Part shown: piece after piece, positions 8,460 to 58,042 of the stretch
Layout of the letters: every line of letters begins with the position of its first letter
Numbering within the stretch: position 1 is the first letter of the stretch
Assembly (NCBI GenBank): GCA_017383485.1
Contig: JAFNXM010000022.1
Span: 1 to 63,784, forward strand
Direction of reading: 5' to 3'
DNA: 63,784 bases
Source: Bacteroidaceae bacterium
Lineage (GTDB): Bacteria > Bacteroidota > Bacteroidia > Bacteroidales > Bacteroidaceae
Made by a program: the position numbers and the translations under genes
The notes under the pieces: model-generated
Database searches by the model: none
Seen by the model: only the letters and a program-made list of their open reading frames with translations
What the model was told of the DNA's origin: nothing

Positions 8460-8948
8460 ATCGCAAAGTTATTTTTCCAAAATTCGACATATAGCGCATG
8501 AATCTGTCGCAAAATAAAAAAACGTGGGACATACATACTCTATTCTAAACTGAAGGTCCTGAGAAAACCCATACACACGAGTAGGTAAGTAGCCCACGCA
8601 TACGCGTGAGAACCACTATGCCAATCTTGTGTGTAATCAGAAAATTTCTCAGGTTTTCAGTTACAAGAAGAGCACAACGCTTCTACGTTATATCTAATGT
8701 TAATATTGAGGATCGACTCAACACTGCAAAGATAATATTTAATAAACAATCTAGTGAAGAAATCAAGAAAAAAAAGACCACGCACTCAATAGTTAAAATA
8801 AAAAATCAAAATTAGTGAAATAAACATTTTATCAAAAGCATATGATTTTCTAGAATCCACCACAAAAACTTGCAGAAATTTTGACAAAATAAATTTTCAT
8901 TCTAGAACGGAGAAAATAGGTTGGGGAGGAAGAAATAAAAACGAAGTA

Positions 8949-9040
8949 AGACCTTTTTGAAAAAAGTCAAGGGTTTGTTGAAAAAAGGTCTAAGGAAATT
9001 TCCACTAGACGTCGCGAAATTTTCATTAGGTCTGGGCTTG
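8949..9040 (+). repeat. Modular intergenic repeat, copy a
   Basis: It contains AGACCTTTTTGAAAAAAGTC, AAAAAAGGTCTAAGG and GACGTCGCGAAATTTT, words shared with seven other gaps in the window. It lies inside composite repeat copy 1. Confidence 0.6.
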
Positions 9041-9053
9041 TTGAGCAAAAGAC

Positions 9054-9131
9054 GGCGGGAAATATTTAGAAAACCTACTCATTTTTACTCAAAAACTCAG
9101 CAAATAGTTAGATTTATAAATATTTCCCGCC
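9054..9131. repeat. Long hairpin, 15 bp perfect stem
   Basis: GGCGGGAAATATTTA (9054-9068) and TAAATATTTCCCGCC (9117-9131) are perfect inverted copies around a 48 nt loop. A similar arm (GCGGGAAATAATGATAAGTC) makes a 20 bp stem at 17643-17717. Confidence 0.7.
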
Positions 9132-9310: not shown

Positions 9311-9549
9311 CACCCTGAAAGGGTAATCAGCACATAGCCCAGGGCATAACGACGAAAGGAGTGACACCCTGGGGTTGAAAAACGAGAGTGAATCAGCGCC
9401 CTGAATGGGCAAAAGCTATAAAACGACATTAACTGAAATCGTATGCTTTTGCCCACTCAGGGCGCATCATTTGTGGGAACATCTACCCAGGGTGTCGGTT
9501 CTCGTTGTTCGCCTGCCCTGGGCTGTGTATTTTTACCTTTTTAAGGCGT
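9311..9549. repeat. Imperfect inverted duplication, ~105 bp arms
   Basis: The left arm (9311-9417) and right arm (9445-9549) match as inverted copies in the order CCTnAAAnGGTAA, GCCCAGGGC, ACACCCTGGG, GCGCCCTGA(A/G)TGGGCAAAAGC. Each arm also contains its own small palindromes (CCCTGAAAGGG, GCCCAGGGC). Both strands give similar spurious peptides beginning FCPxRA. It lies just downstream of the S9 peptidase stop codon. It appears to be a dispersed-repeat type element rather than a gene. Confidence 0.65.
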
Positions 9550-15067: not shown

Positions 15068-15248
15068 AGATACGAATAAACGAGCGAGAAATATGAAGTT
15101 TACTTCAATATTTTTCAAAGCGAGCGAAAGTATCTTCGAGATTTATCTCAGAGATACGAATAAGCGAGCGAAATAATATCAAGCTTGCCCCAATATTTTT
15201 CACAGCGGGCGAAAGTATCTTCGAGATTTATCTCAGAGATACGAATAA
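15068..15248. repeat. Tandem repeat, 84-85 bp period, 2 copies plus partial
   Basis: AGATACGAATAA begins units at 15068, 15152 and 15237. Each full unit also carries CAATATTTTTCA, GCGRGCGAAAGTATC and TTCGAGATTTATCTCAG. The last part forms a ~12 bp hairpin (GTATCT...AGATAC) with the start of the next unit. The units lie between divergent promoters. Confidence 0.75.
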
Positions 15249-16384: not shown

Positions 16385-16430
16385 TTCCCATCATTAGTCA
16401 CAAAATCAACAAATCGTTGAGCTATTGAAA

Positions 16431-16528
16431 GAAGCCAAGACCTCGTTAAAAAAACATTAGACCTTTTTCAAATTTCCTTAAACCTTTTTCAAATTTGCTT
16501 AGACCTTTTTTAAATTATCCAAGGCTTC
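16431..16528. repeat. Modular intergenic repeat, copy b
   Basis: It is bounded by GAAGCC and GGCTTC inverted ends. Inside are three direct AGACC/AAACCTTTTTCAAATTT-type words and an AAGACCTCGTTAAAAAAA word. It lacks the CGCGACG word of the other copies. It occupies most of the gap between rpoD and nanA. Confidence 0.6.
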
Positions 16529-16674
16529 TTTTCGCGAACAATAATTTCACCAAATCGAGACATTATCCCAAGGCCATAAAACTTCGCCCCGTGGGTAATA
16601 TCATCATACGTTTTTAGCCTATCATCACATCAAAAAAAGGCAGGGAAAAACCATGCCACTTCGGAATAAAACAT

Positions 16675-17622: not shown

Positions 17623-17642
17623 TATAGAATACACACATAAAA

Positions 17643-17717
17643 GCGGGAAATAATGATAAGTCCTTCTATCTTTTACCCAACTCTGTGGCAAAAGTAAGAC
17701 TTATCATTATTTCCCGC
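17643..17717. terminator. Hairpin with 20 bp perfect stem between convergent genes
   Basis: GCGGGAAATAATGATAAGTC (17643-17662) and its exact inverse (17698-17717) flank a 35 nt loop. It lies between the convergent nanA and TonB-receptor genes, where a bidirectional terminator would sit, but it has no clear T run and resembles the stem at 9054-9131, so it may be a repeat-type hairpin. Confidence 0.6.
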
Positions 17718-17829
17718 AATTTTATAGAGATTCTGACGCGTTAGCCTTGCGCTATTATGCGCACGACTTTGCGTTTGTTAAATTTCACACAATTCTAGCG
17801 CATTAAACTTTGTAAAAATGGTGGTATGT

Positions 17830-23825: not shown

Positions 23826-23918
23826 TTAGTAAAAATTTCGCGACGCCTCGTTAAAATTTTGCGACGCCTCGTGAAAATTACCCTAGACCTTTTTTAAACT
23901 AACTCTTGACTTTTTTCA
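23826..23918. repeat. Modular intergenic repeat, copy c
   Basis: Two direct TTTYGCGACGCCTCGT words (23837 and 23859 regions) are followed by TAGACCTTTTTTAAAC and TTGACTTTTTTC words. Confidence 0.65.
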
Positions 23919-28134: not shown

Positions 28135-28249
28135 CAAACGGCCAAAGGATAATATATTTTCTACGCCTTTCACCCACGACAAACAAGAAAATATTTGTAA
28201 TTTTACCTCAAATTCGACACAGACCATAAACCCTACTTTTCACAACATT

Positions 28250-28326
28250 AGACCTCGTGAAAAAAAAGTCTAACCTTTTTTAAATTTCGCGACGCCTAGT
28301 TTAAAAAAGGTCTAGGTTTTTTTCAA
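28250..28326. repeat. Modular intergenic repeat, copy d
   Basis: AGACCTCGTGAAAAA, AAGTCTAACC, TTTCGCGACGCCTAG and AAAAAAGGTCTAGG occur in series. ACCTTTTTTAAA (28273-28284) and TTTAAAAAAGGT (28300-28311) form a 12 bp perfect stem whose 15 nt loop is the TTTCGCGACGCCTAG word. Confidence 0.65.
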
Positions 28327-36268: not shown

Positions 36269-36469
36269 AACATCGGAGGTTTACTTCCGAATTGCGAGTG
36301 CAAAAGTAGCACTTTTATTTCAATCCTCCAAATCTTTTTACAAGAAAAAAGTAGAAATTTATAAAAATATAGTTTTTAGGACAGCCTTGCAAATGTAAAT
36401 TAAATGGGATTACAAGGCAACGCCATTATAGTTTTTTCCACCTATATCAAACCTAAGTTTCACAAACCA

Positions 36470-36566
36470 AGACCTTGTTAAAAAAAAGTCTAACCTTTTT
36501 TAAATTTCGCGACGCCTCGTTAAAATTTCGCGACGCCTCGTTAAAAAAAGGTTAAGGCTTTTTTTG
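36470..36566. repeat. Modular intergenic repeat, copy e
   Basis: It has two direct AATTTCGCGACGCCTCGTTA words flanked by ACCTTTTTTAA (36493-36503) and TTAAAAAAAGGT (36541-36552), which pair. Its tail GTTAAGGCTTTTTTT matches copy h. Confidence 0.7.
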
Positions 36567-41652: not shown

Positions 41653-41782
41653 CAAACCAAGACTTTTTTGCATATATGCAGACGAGAAAAAAATTCTACC
41701 TATGAAAGATTTATGATTATTTAACAGTCAAGAAAAATGATTCTATATTTTTTTGAACAAACCAAGGGGAAAATAAAATTTG

Positions 41783-41840
41783 TCAAGACTTTTTTAAAAC
41801 TTTCCAAGACCTTATAAAAATTTTGCGACGGCTTGTTTTT
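41783..41840. repeat. Modular intergenic repeat, copy f (short)
   Basis: AAGACTTTTTTAAAA, CCAAGACCTTATAAAAA and TTTTGCGACGGCTTG are recognisable, degraded relative to the other copies. Confidence 0.5.
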
Positions 41841-44182: not shown

Positions 44183-44209
44183 TTATAGGTATTATATTAG
44201 GGAACGAAT

Positions 44210-44272
44210 TTGATATAAGAGAGAACAGATTTGATATAAGAGAGAACAGATTTGATATAAGACTATCATAAA
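44210..44272. repeat. 21 bp tandem repeat, three copies
   Basis: TTGATATAAGAGAGAACAGA-type units start at 44210, 44231 and 44252 with exact 21 bp spacing; the third is partial. Confidence 0.8.
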
Positions 44273-49150: not shown

Positions 49151-49239
49151 ATTTCATCACTCCTTTATTTTTCAAAAACCAGGAGTTATTAGATATAATT
49201 TTCGCTTATCCAGAAAACGCTAAAAAACCTTAAAATATT

Positions 49240-49578
49240 GCAGAAATTTTGACAAAATAAATTGGCAAACCAGGAGACAAAAATTCATCGTAGACTTGTG
49301 TTTTTTGAAAAAATTAAGGCATGATTGAAAAAAGTCAAGGGTTTGTATCAACAAAGCCTTGGATAATTTTTACGAGACGTCGCGAAATTTCAATTTTCTC
49401 AGACCTTTTTTTGCACAAAATTCAGGAAAATTTCATTTAATATGCACCACATTTGCATAAATATTCACAAAATCGGGCGAAAATCCATATTTCGTGCATA
49501 AATCCTGCATAAACTGATCGCGTGAGAATTGCTCAGACGTACACGGCTTTATATTTCTTGACTTTTACGCGATTCTCG
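49240..49578 (+). repeat. Composite ~340 bp repeat, copy 2
   Basis: It shares the four blocks of copy 1 (8872-9210) at offsets 0, 85, 135 and 329 bp. The last block reads TGACTTTTACGCGATTCTCG, against TGATTTTTATGCGATTCTCG in copy 1. Confidence 0.7.
49301..49414 (+). repeat. Modular intergenic repeat, copy g
   Basis: TTGAAAAAAGTCAAGGGTTT, AAGCCTTGG, GAGACGTCGCGAAATTT and CAGACCTTTTTTTG words in series; it lies inside composite repeat copy 2. Confidence 0.55.
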
Positions 49579-53151: not shown

Positions 53152-54348
53152 ATGAATAAATTATCAGATCGTCTGAACAGACTTGCCACATCTGCCACAT
53201 TGGCTATGTCTCAAAAGAGCAGCGAGCTCAAAGCTCAGGGCGTTGACGTCATCAACCTCAGTGTCGGCGAACCAGACTTTAATACACCAGATCATATCAA
53301 GGCTGCAGCAATCAAGGCAGTTGAAGAAAATTTCTCACGCTACTCTCCCGTCCCAGGATATCCTGCATTGAGAGAAGCCATCGTTCAAAAGTTGAAAAAC
53401 GAGAACGGGCTCGAGTACACAGCAGCACAGATTTCATGCGCAAACGGCGCAAAGCAAAGCGTATGTAATGCCGTATTGACAATTGTCAACGACGGTGACG
53501 AAGTGATCGTACCAGCACCTTATTGGGTAAGTTATCCCGATATGGTGAAGTTGGCTGGTGGTACTCCTGTATTTATCCCAGCAGGTATTGAACAAGACTT
53601 CAAAATCACTCCAGCACAACTTGAAGCGGCAATTACGCCCAAGACTCGTGCTATCATCCTTTGTTCGCCCAGCAACCCTACAGGTTCAGTTTACAGCAAG
53701 GCGGAATTGGCTGCATTGGCAGAAGTTTTGGCTAAACACGAACGCGTGATTATCCTCGCAGATGAAATCTACGAGCATATCAACTACATCGGCAAGCACG
53801 AAAGTATTGCACAATTTGAAAATATCAGAGACCGCGTCGTTATCATCAACGGTGTGTCAAAAGCATACGCTATGACAGGCTGGCGCATCGGCTTCATCGC
53901 TGGTCCAGAATGGATCGTGAAGGGATGCAACAAGTTGCAAGGTCAATATACCAGTGGTCCCTGCTCAGTTTCACAAAAGGCAGCTGAAGCAGCCTACGTA
54001 GGCTCGCAAGAATGCGTTGCAGAAATGCGTGTAGCCTTCGCTCGCCGTCGCGACTTAATCGTGAAATTGGCAAAGGAAATTCCTGGTTTGGAAGTCAACG
54101 AGCCACAAGGTGCATTCTACCTTTTCCCCAAATGTAGCGCCTTCTATGGCAAGGCAGACACCAACGGCAAAGTGATCAACACTTCTGACGATTTGGCATT
54201 CTACCTATTGGAACGTGCACATGTTGCGACTGTAGGCGGCGATGCCTTTGGTTCTCCCGAATGCTTCCGTATGAGCTACGCAACAAGCGACGAGAATATC
54301 GTAGAAGCTATGCGCCGCATCAAAGAAGCTTTGGCCGAATTGAAATAA
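53152..54348 (+). CDS. Pyridoxal-phosphate aminotransferase (AspC-like)
   Basis: A 398-residue class I/II aminotransferase, probably aspartate aminotransferase type Ib. Visible motifs are INLSVGEPDFNTPDHI, CSPSNPTGSVYS (cofactor-binding Asn) and NGVSKAYAMTGWRIGF with the PLP lysine, followed by an arginine that binds the substrate carboxylate (SYATSDENI region). It transfers amino groups between aspartate and oxoglutarate; other keto acids are possible. A 23 bp tandem repeat follows right after the stop codon. Confidence 0.9.
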   Translation: MNKLSDRLNRLATSATLAMSQKSSELKAQGVDVINLSVGEPDFNTPDHIKAAAIKAVEENFSRYSPVPGYPALREAIVQKLKNENGLEYTAAQISCANGAKQSVCNAVLTIVNDGDEVIVPAPYWVSYPDMVKLAGGTPVFIPAGIEQDFKITPAQLEAAITPKTRAIILCSPSNPTGSVYSKAELAALAEVLAKHERVIILADEIYEHINYIGKHESIAQFENIRDRVVIINGVSKAYAMTGWRIGFIAGPEWIVKGCNKLQGQYTSGPCSVSQKAAEAAYVGSQECVAEMRVAFARRRDLIVKLAKEIPGLEVNEPQGAFYLFPKCSAFYGKADTNGKVINTSDDLAFYLLERAHVATVGGDAFGSPECFRMSYATSDENIVEAMRRIKEALAELK

Positions 54349-54361
54349 CTAATTATAAGTT

Positions 54362-54500
54362 GACAAGTTTTCAGTAAACAAGTGGACAAGTTTTCAGTAA
54401 ACAAGTGGACAAGTTATAACGAGTTGGCAGTTTTATAGTAAACAAGTTGACAAGTTTTCAGTAAACGAGTTAACAAGTATTAGCTAACGTGTTGACTTTT
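54362..54500. repeat. 23 bp tandem repeat after the aminotransferase gene
   Basis: GACAAGTTTTCAGTAAACAA(GTG) units start at 54362, 54385 and 54408, and degenerate copies continue to about 54500 (GACAAGTTTTCAGTAAACGA, GTTAACAAG, GTGTTGAC). Spacing is exactly 23 bp for the first three. Confidence 0.8.
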
Positions 54501-57897: not shown

Positions 57898-57958
57898 AAA
57901 AGCCCTACTCTGCCAAGCAGTAATTAAGCATTAGAAATTAGGCAGAAAAGCCAACTTT

Positions 57959-58042
57959 CACGAGCCGTCGCGAAATTTAAAAAAGGTCTAGGTTTTTTAA
58001 AATTTCGCGACGGCTCGTTGAAAAAAGGTTAAGACTTTTTTC
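57959..58042. repeat. Modular intergenic repeat, copy h (near-perfect palindrome)
   Basis: The left arm 57960-57984 (starts ACGAGCCGTCGCG) and the right arm 57993-58018 (ends CGCGACGGCTCGT) are inverted copies differing by one inserted base, with loop GGTCTAGG. A tail GTTGAAAAAAGGTTAAGACT, then TTTTTT, matches copy e. Confidence 0.75.

Follow-up and report, generated by a model that had tools for sequence, protein, structure and literature searches.

Intergenic arrays on a 21-nt lattice, evenly spaced along the genome of an uncultured relative of Prevotella, are candidate architectural binding sites

What are the short words that recur, in changing order and orientation, between the genes of an uncultured relative of Prevotella? 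The question arises from a window of 63,784 nucleotides, which is contig C22 of the assembly G000 (1,677,617 bases, 39 contigs, 63.6% complete). A first-pass annotation had described a modular word family in eight gaps of this window, and had suggested REP/BIME-like repeats, a MITE, or nucleoid or terminator sites. It had also reasoned that words at chance frequency, or equally common inside genes, would make the family illusory. The family is real. In a sample of 461 kb (the window and three contigs) the most over-represented 11-mers are the words already described; for example, AATTTCGCGAC occurs 80 times against 1.3 expected. This over-representation rules out a chance origin. A word search of the window detects clusters of the family in these eight gaps and nowhere else (Table 1). 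In 833 kb of G000 we called 113 clusters, and 101 of these contain at least two family words (strict arrays). By eye, the remaining 12 are eight arrays, one end of a longer element and three false calls. The total is approximately 109 arrays, which supports a modular element that is genome-wide. The high density claimed for it is correct, with a figure nearer one per 7 kb than one per 8 kb. Likewise, all copies in the window are outside genes, as had been stated, but in the genome this applies to 92 of the 101 strict arrays, scored against ORFs of at least 100 aa. The other nine are within predicted ORFs, seven of 102-202 aa and two of 443 and 667 aa. At the Rfam gathering threshold, tRNA was the sole match in the window; the arrays match no known structured RNA family. 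A phage origin was rejected, since one array pattern had 0 exact matches in viral contigs.

All eight gaps of the window share one lattice. Briefly, each unit is 21 nt long and consists of about six A/T-rich nucleotides, a 9-nt core and six further A/T-rich nucleotides. A frequent order of units begins AAAAAA-GTCAAGRCC-..., continues with (AAATTT-CGCGACGSC-TCGTTA)n and ends with AAAAAA-GGTCTAATG-TTTTTT, then GAAAAA-GGTTAAGGC-TTTTTT. Distances between cores were taken in elements with at least two lexicon cores; in G000 (85 elements) they are exact multiples of 21 nt for 351 of 361 pairs. The equivalent count in the sister species, G001, is 149 of 150 (49 elements). Flipped units keep the register because the unit layout is symmetric; pairs in opposite orientation obey the 21-nt rule in 88/92 and 40/41 cases, respectively. 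Coding heptad repeats (21 nt equates to seven codons) were rejected as an explanation. Core distances fall at 0 mod 21 and at no other multiples of 3, and do so in both orientations. A and T runs, as a rule, slip easily. That register is kept despite such runs in the units is counted in favour of the architectural reading described below. The copies had been described as assembled from parts. This is correct, though the parts obey a strict 21-nt lattice that was overlooked. The near-perfect inverted repeat noted at 57960-58018 also stands, but its loop is 9 nt rather than 8 and its arms are 25 nt.

Table 1. Arrays of the family in the window and features associated with them
Feature	Position	Strand	Description	Basis
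Array 1	8944..9064	-	CGCGACG unit on minus strand	
'B'-type flank near array 1	8859..8895	+	TTGCAGAAATTTTGACAAAATAAATT, common to longer 'B' element type	
Array 2	16430..16532	+	one 21-nt unit more than sister species (anchors 127 vs 106 nt)	
Array 3	23833..23916	+	four units	
Array 4	28240..28323	+	four units; orthologous locus of equal length (131 vs 131)	
Array 5	36460..36564	+	five units	
Array 6	41776..41838	+	three units	
Array 7	49308..49412	-	five units	
'B'-type flank near array 7	49227..49263	+	word identical to 8859-8895	
Array 8	57958..58041	+	four 21-nt units: TCACGAGCCGTCGCGAAATTT, AAAAAAGGTCTAGGTTTTTTA, AAATTTCGCGACGGCTCGTTG, AAAAAAGGTTAAGACTTTTTT	lattice parse
Palindrome in array 8	arms 57960-57984 and 57994-58018		24/25 paired, 9 nt between	

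Comparison of syntenic gaps, which the first-pass annotation had proposed, was made with G001 (JAGKTZ01, isolate cow7.9). A protein of the window has a match of 91% identity in G001; other matches in the genus reach at most 72% over the whole length or 73-80% over part of it. Orthology was assigned from unique-flank pairs, 29 of which were comparable between the sister species. Arrays occupy the same loci in 27 of 30 cases, and in 24 of 25 in the reverse direction. The three missing loci are one false cluster, one locus with diverged words and window array 5 (36460), where the orthologous segment of about 930 nt holds other sequence and no array was called. The reverse miss is G001 array C27:74321, which has no array at the G000 locus. 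Within loci, the arrays change. Units were lost or gained at C22:16440, C4:84264, C36:102495 and C27:130273. A two-unit centre is inverted exactly in place at C10:31267, relative to G001 C88:5626. At C3:48796 (G001 C5:21423) pairing is kept through changes on both arms. The variable base after CGCGACG has undergone a species-wide shift, being C 95/G 32/T 20 in G000 and C 16/G 6/T 31 in G001 (p about 1e-9). Lower substitution inside arrays was rejected as a sign of selection; the compared flanks begin where BLAST stopped and are hence biased.

Outside these two species the words are almost absent. A search of 61 genomes, 37 of the genus and 24 of other families, found 225 matches to the CGCGACG word in G000, 94 in G001, 1 in G003 and 0 in the 58 others. 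A second word is present only in G000 and G001 among 58 genomes of the genus, G000 included. Other species have words of their own. The family AAATTATTAGTAACATATTTT... has 155 matches in G003 and 0 in the other 57 genomes. Loci L230, L235 and L236 of G003 contain arrays with further words (ATTCGGCAC/GTGCCGAAT; AAAAATGTTCAATGGATTGAAG). Hence, one genome can hold several word families. The words of G009, G032 and G020 are AGTCCGCCGATAGG, AACTAGGAGCGCACCCAGTAAA and ATTATCATCCGCATGAAACGAA, and that of G067, TATAAACCAAGGTTTGAATTA, matches 190 times in that genome and no more than 5 times in each of the others. In G078 the strict word gave 3 matches, so the words of that species are more variable than assumed.

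The unit length is more widely shared. We determined the autocorrelation of intergenic 8-mers, at distances of 6-70, in 17 sampled species. The leading repeat distance is 21 or 22 in 13 of the 17 (44 by one count in G078), with small counts in G033 (10), G081 (7) and G075 (8). It is not 21 or 22 in G004 (60 kb) and G015 (40 kb), nor in G071 and G080, whose samples are very small. G004 and G015 are well sampled, so members of the genus can do without the lattice, a point against the architectural reading. For a further 15 species, with 0.4-1.9 kb of intergenic DNA, 21/22 led or tied (at least 3 matches) in four: G010, G013, G022 and G068. Controls gave 0 at 21 and 0 at 22, both in 200 kb of E. 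coli (23 kb intergenic) and in three other families of the order (1.4-5.4 kb intergenic each). Coding-masked positions also show a peak at 21 in G000 (290) and G009 (51), which counts against the architectural reading, and high values in G001 (148) and G075 (59); some of this signal derives from arrays without stop codons that were called as ORFs. Array positions in G003 agree with those in G000 at 10 of 27 gene sides, against a background of 0.186, and 6 of the 10 rely on matches of at most 44% identity. The positions are not clearly common to both genomes, which we count against the architectural reading. Separately, G033 carries a CRISPR-like array at L262:9540-9800, with repeat GTCGCAGCCCGCTTGGGCTGCGTGAATTGAAAC.

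Consecutive arrays are evenly spaced. For clusters with at least 30 word-covered nt in G000, the mean spacing is 7.4 kb and the coefficient of variation (CV) is 0.43 (97 spacings). Random choice of intergenic gaps, weighted by length, gave a CV of 0.81, with a minimum of 0.64 in 500 simulations. Uniform placement gave 0.96, and 0 of 1000 runs were as even as observed. Only 1 of the 97 spacings is below 3 kb, against 32 under an exponential. The 101 strict arrays have a CV of 0.46 (1/92 spacings below 3 kb) and all 113 clusters a CV of 0.40, with 83 of 103 spacings between 4 and 10 kb. In G001 the CV is 0.53 (0/1000 uniform simulations as even). The G003 arrays, with unrelated words, have a CV of 0.50 (0/2000 simulations as even) for 34 spacings among the matches listed, taken from one word on contigs with at least two matches. 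The CCCTGAAAGGGC repeat of G000 has a CV of 1.37, on 6 spacings only. Because the spacing is even, the suggested nucleoid-type role gains support. The main word of G067 occurs once per 12 to 190 kb among the matches listed; this wide spacing is counted against the architectural reading.

The arrays show no preference for gene orientation, according to the gene-strand count that the first-pass annotation had recommended. For 91 strict arrays outside ORFs, contexts are ++28, --22, +-20 and -+21; intergenic length predicts ++26.2, --29.1, +-18.2 and -+17.5. In co-directional gaps, 26 arrays run with the genes and 19 against. From the facing stop codon to the array start, the median distance is 121 nt. 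Using all 113 clusters, we found a separate terminator-like hairpin before the array at 47 of 107 gene ends facing one, compared with 57 of 227 array-free gene ends in gaps of at least 100 nt. Hence, many arrays lie beyond a terminator and are not themselves terminators. An intrinsic terminator would be expected just after the stop, oriented with the gene and rarely in divergent gaps; the arrays do not behave in this way. Termination, also suggested, thus finds no support as the main role. Arrays do have hairpin potential. Compared with dinucleotide shuffles, the mean folding z is -2.65 (29/50 below -2), whereas array-free intergenic DNA has a mean of -0.87 (8/50 below -2). The four single units folded were no better than shuffles; most pairing thus joins different units. 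Among arrays with a CGCGACG-type word, 15/94 (G000) and 9/50 (G001) contain 13-nt arms that complement each other within the array. Halves of different arrays predict 7.1 and 3.7, and 0 of 301 shuffles reach either observed value. The outer cores of array G000:C4:143006 have atypical sequences (GCCTACTCC ... GGAGTAGGC) that nevertheless complement each other exactly, a pattern resembling the copying of one arm onto its partner.

Some arrays are inside a longer element bounded by direct repeats of ATGCGAAAAATTTTGACAAA. In the stretches examined, we defined 23 of these elements in G000, and G001 yielded 21. The repeat pairs of G000 are 331-334 (14), 353 (4) or 375 (2) nt apart, with 5/25 at other distances (119, 120, 213, 213, 291). 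Those of G001 are 331-334 (12), 353 (3) or 374-375 (3) nt apart, with 5/23 at others (108, 120, 211, 213, 342). These steps of about 21 fit the 21-nt unit. Paralogous copies are 67-95% identical, and the closest copies of many arrays are located in longer elements. Seven G000 copies had usable flanks for comparison with G001, and no empty site was seen among them. Five have clear orthologues, equal in length within 1 nt; the other two both pointed to one G001 region and are uncertain. In G003 the terminal repeat has 10 copies with 1-2 mismatches, and partners at 331-375 nt were not found in the stretches examined. For most arrays, common ends or a common flank are absent. No clean empty site with a target-site duplication was found among the orthologous loci (30 and 25), of which 3 and 1 are without a called array. 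A PF01609 transposase, the sole DDE family searched, was rejected as the source, having no match in the incomplete G000 genome at E <= 0.001. A MITE is therefore unsupported for most arrays. The one RAYT-type Y1_Tnp gene (PF01797) in G000, at C36:4087-4425, adjoins the CCCTGAAAGGGC repeat; PF01797 has no match in G001 or G003, all three genomes being incomplete. We rejected a RAYT as mobiliser of the arrays, as this sole gene goes with a different repeat. A ninth word cluster of the window, at 9313-9373, belongs to a repeat family distinct from the arrays (GCCCTGAAAGGGC ... CCCAGGGTGTCGCTCC); at G000:C36:40-3979 this family lies beside the Y1_Tnp gene, and it is probably a REP/RAYT system.

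Porphyromonas gingivalis belongs to the same order of bacteria as the window host. Its BrickBuilt element is the nearest known system in kind. BrickBuilt is a MITE present in 19 copies, with a 23-nt minisatellite between a non-repetitive leader and tail, IS5-like ends GAGACCTTTGCA, and empty sites with target-site duplications; 22- and 41-nt repeats are also mentioned (PMC4596501). Both systems are tandem and intergenic, with units of about two helical turns that are gained and lost between strains, and some copies with inverted ends. They differ in that here about 109 arrays in 833 kb are evenly spaced and use a word lexicon in both orientations. The ends GAGACCTTTGCA, allowing at most 2 mismatches, are within 200 nt of 2 of the 113 clusters. 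Rather than 23-nt units with leader and tail, our arrays have a 21-nt lattice, mostly without a common flank. The arrays resemble REP, BIME and REPIN sequences, as portrayed in PMC3116915, in being high-copy, intergenic (92/101) and hairpin-forming, with lineage-specific words and mosaic orientation. They differ in lacking a GTAG tag or adjoining RAYT, and in their strict lattice and even kilobase spacing; in one Pseudomonas, that paper states, next-neighbour distances of REPs above 200 bp are random. GTAG/CTAC occurs 4 times in 9,045 nt of clusters, against 75.8 expected from the genome rate. Given this depletion, and the sole RAYT-type gene of an incomplete genome being beside a different repeat, the REP/BIME suggestion is unsupported. 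For CGTC-tagged REPs without a known transposase, PMC3733652 lists Bacteroidetes among the phyla. Here, CGTC is present on the reverse strand of one unit, again with no known transposase. However, the units folded lack the 8-9-bp stem and 4-5-nt loop (PMC3733652); three CGCGACG-type units formed 4, 5 and 3 pairs and did not surpass shuffles. The quoted words of G003, G067 and G009 are without CGTC. In extracts of RepRanger (PMC12306157), the Bacteroidota entries are two Flavobacterium and one Thermoflavifilum, and Prevotella and Porphyromonas are unmentioned. We found no description of evenly spaced 21/22-nt lattice arrays in the open PMC literature, which holds few subscription papers and no bioRxiv preprints.

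Copying (REP, MITE) and RNA hairpins are the customary explanations for bacterial short intergenic repeats. Even kilobase-scale spacing, exact two-turn register and free replacement of words fit neither well. The main rival to an architectural role is a selfish, non-autonomous MITE-like repeat. This would have multiplied in the common ancestor of G000 and G001, target immunity would have held new copies at a distance from earlier ones and so generated the even spacing, and the arrays would then have evolved in place. Consistent with this, words are common to copies genome-wide and restricted to the clade (225 matches in G000, 94 in G001, 1 in G003, 0/58 others). The longer elements with ATGCGAAAAATTTTGACAAA direct terminal repeats (23 and 21) hold many of the closest copies, a single spacing of 97 is under 3 kb, and the G000 counterpart of the C27:74321 locus of G001 lacks an array. 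However, most arrays have no shared ends, the sister species present no clean empty site with target duplication, no PF01609 gene was found in G000, and its sole RAYT-type gene goes with another repeat. Immunity would also be needed in at least two lineages whose words are unrelated, and accounts for the spacing but not the register. We regard a selfish origin as unlikely. Were it correct, target immunity of a non-coding repeat would have left a clear footprint across the genome in the form of even spacing.

Mutation might instead build arrays unaided. Slippage and hairpin template switching would spontaneously produce functionless 21/22-nt arrays in untranslated DNA, the ruler being some repair or replication step. 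The common unit length, with words that differ by species and partly by locus, points this way. So do the in-place inversion and two-arm compensatory change between sister species, and the excess of complementary arms in CGCGACG-type arrays (15/94 vs 7.1; 9/50 vs 3.7); mutation alone accounts for hairpin copying and inversion. Yet such a by-product predicts neither even spacing nor words shared genome-wide, and random slippage of A/T runs should break a register that 351/361 pairs keep. We judge it quite improbable. Least probable are RNA hairpins at transcript ends, acting as two-way terminators or RNA stabilisers. The folding contrast (-2.65 and 29/50, vs -0.87 and 8/50), the A-runs before arms and T-runs after, and the 26/45 arrays oriented with genes in co-directional gaps would suit such a role. 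Against it, divergent gaps are not depleted (21/91 vs 17.5 expected), arrays start a median 121 nt past the stop, and 47/107 facing ends already have a hairpin (57/227 when array-free). In addition, folding of the four single units does not exceed that of shuffles, and even spacing is unexplained.

We tentatively favour, with a probability of about 0.4, the reading that these are architectural arrays of binding sites, evenly spaced and with a rapid turnover of words. Each array would be a row of two-helical-turn blocks (21 bp). A putative DNA-binding protein would read the cores of about 9 nt with their A/T flanks and stack on one helix face. Arrays about 7 kb apart could anchor or partition the chromosome, for instance as boundaries of loops or supercoil domains. 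Units might be gained and lost by slippage or unequal recombination, and one hairpin arm copied onto the other by template switching, so that words are rewritten quickly while selection keeps unit length and spacing. Arrays of sites for a stacking protein explain register and even spacing jointly, and leave words free to change with the protein. The lack of orientation preference, the 13/17 species at 21/22, the retention of loci and the species-wide base shift also argue for this architectural reading. Conversely, neither a binding protein nor an enzyme was found. A distance of 15 bp separates the two A/T tracts within a unit, which are hence out of simple curvature phase, and the 22-nt units found in some species depart from an exact two turns of 10.5 bp; both count against it. 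A broader form is more doubtful: a chromosome-organising system of intergenic arrays about 7 kb apart, with a two-turn (21/22-nt) lattice kept in many species of the genus and words replaced species by species, as in a race between an architectural protein and its sites. That several related species share the build while using wholly different words may point to an unrecognised chromosome organisation. If confirmed, the arrays would provide a testable handle on what divides a bacterial chromosome into domains of some 7 kb, which nucleoid biology has yet to settle. Such sites would be invisible to sequence conservation yet obvious by spacing.

The window contains further repeats. Three tandem 21-nt units with unrelated words (TATAAGAGAGAACAGATTTGA) lie between two ORFs at 44193-44262; here, the 21-nt period recurs with different sequence. 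Direct repeats of AGTAAACAAGTGGACAAGTTTTC type, in steps of 23 and 41, are at 54347-54497, and words resembling them, ACAAGTAGAC and AGTAAACAAG, are enriched in the first 40 kb of contig C4 (1-40 kb). At 15090-15248 are two direct copies of 74 nt, 91% identical and separated by 85 nt. An inverted repeat with 42-nt arms, 76% complementary and 25 nt apart, is directly 3' of an ORF at 17626-17734.
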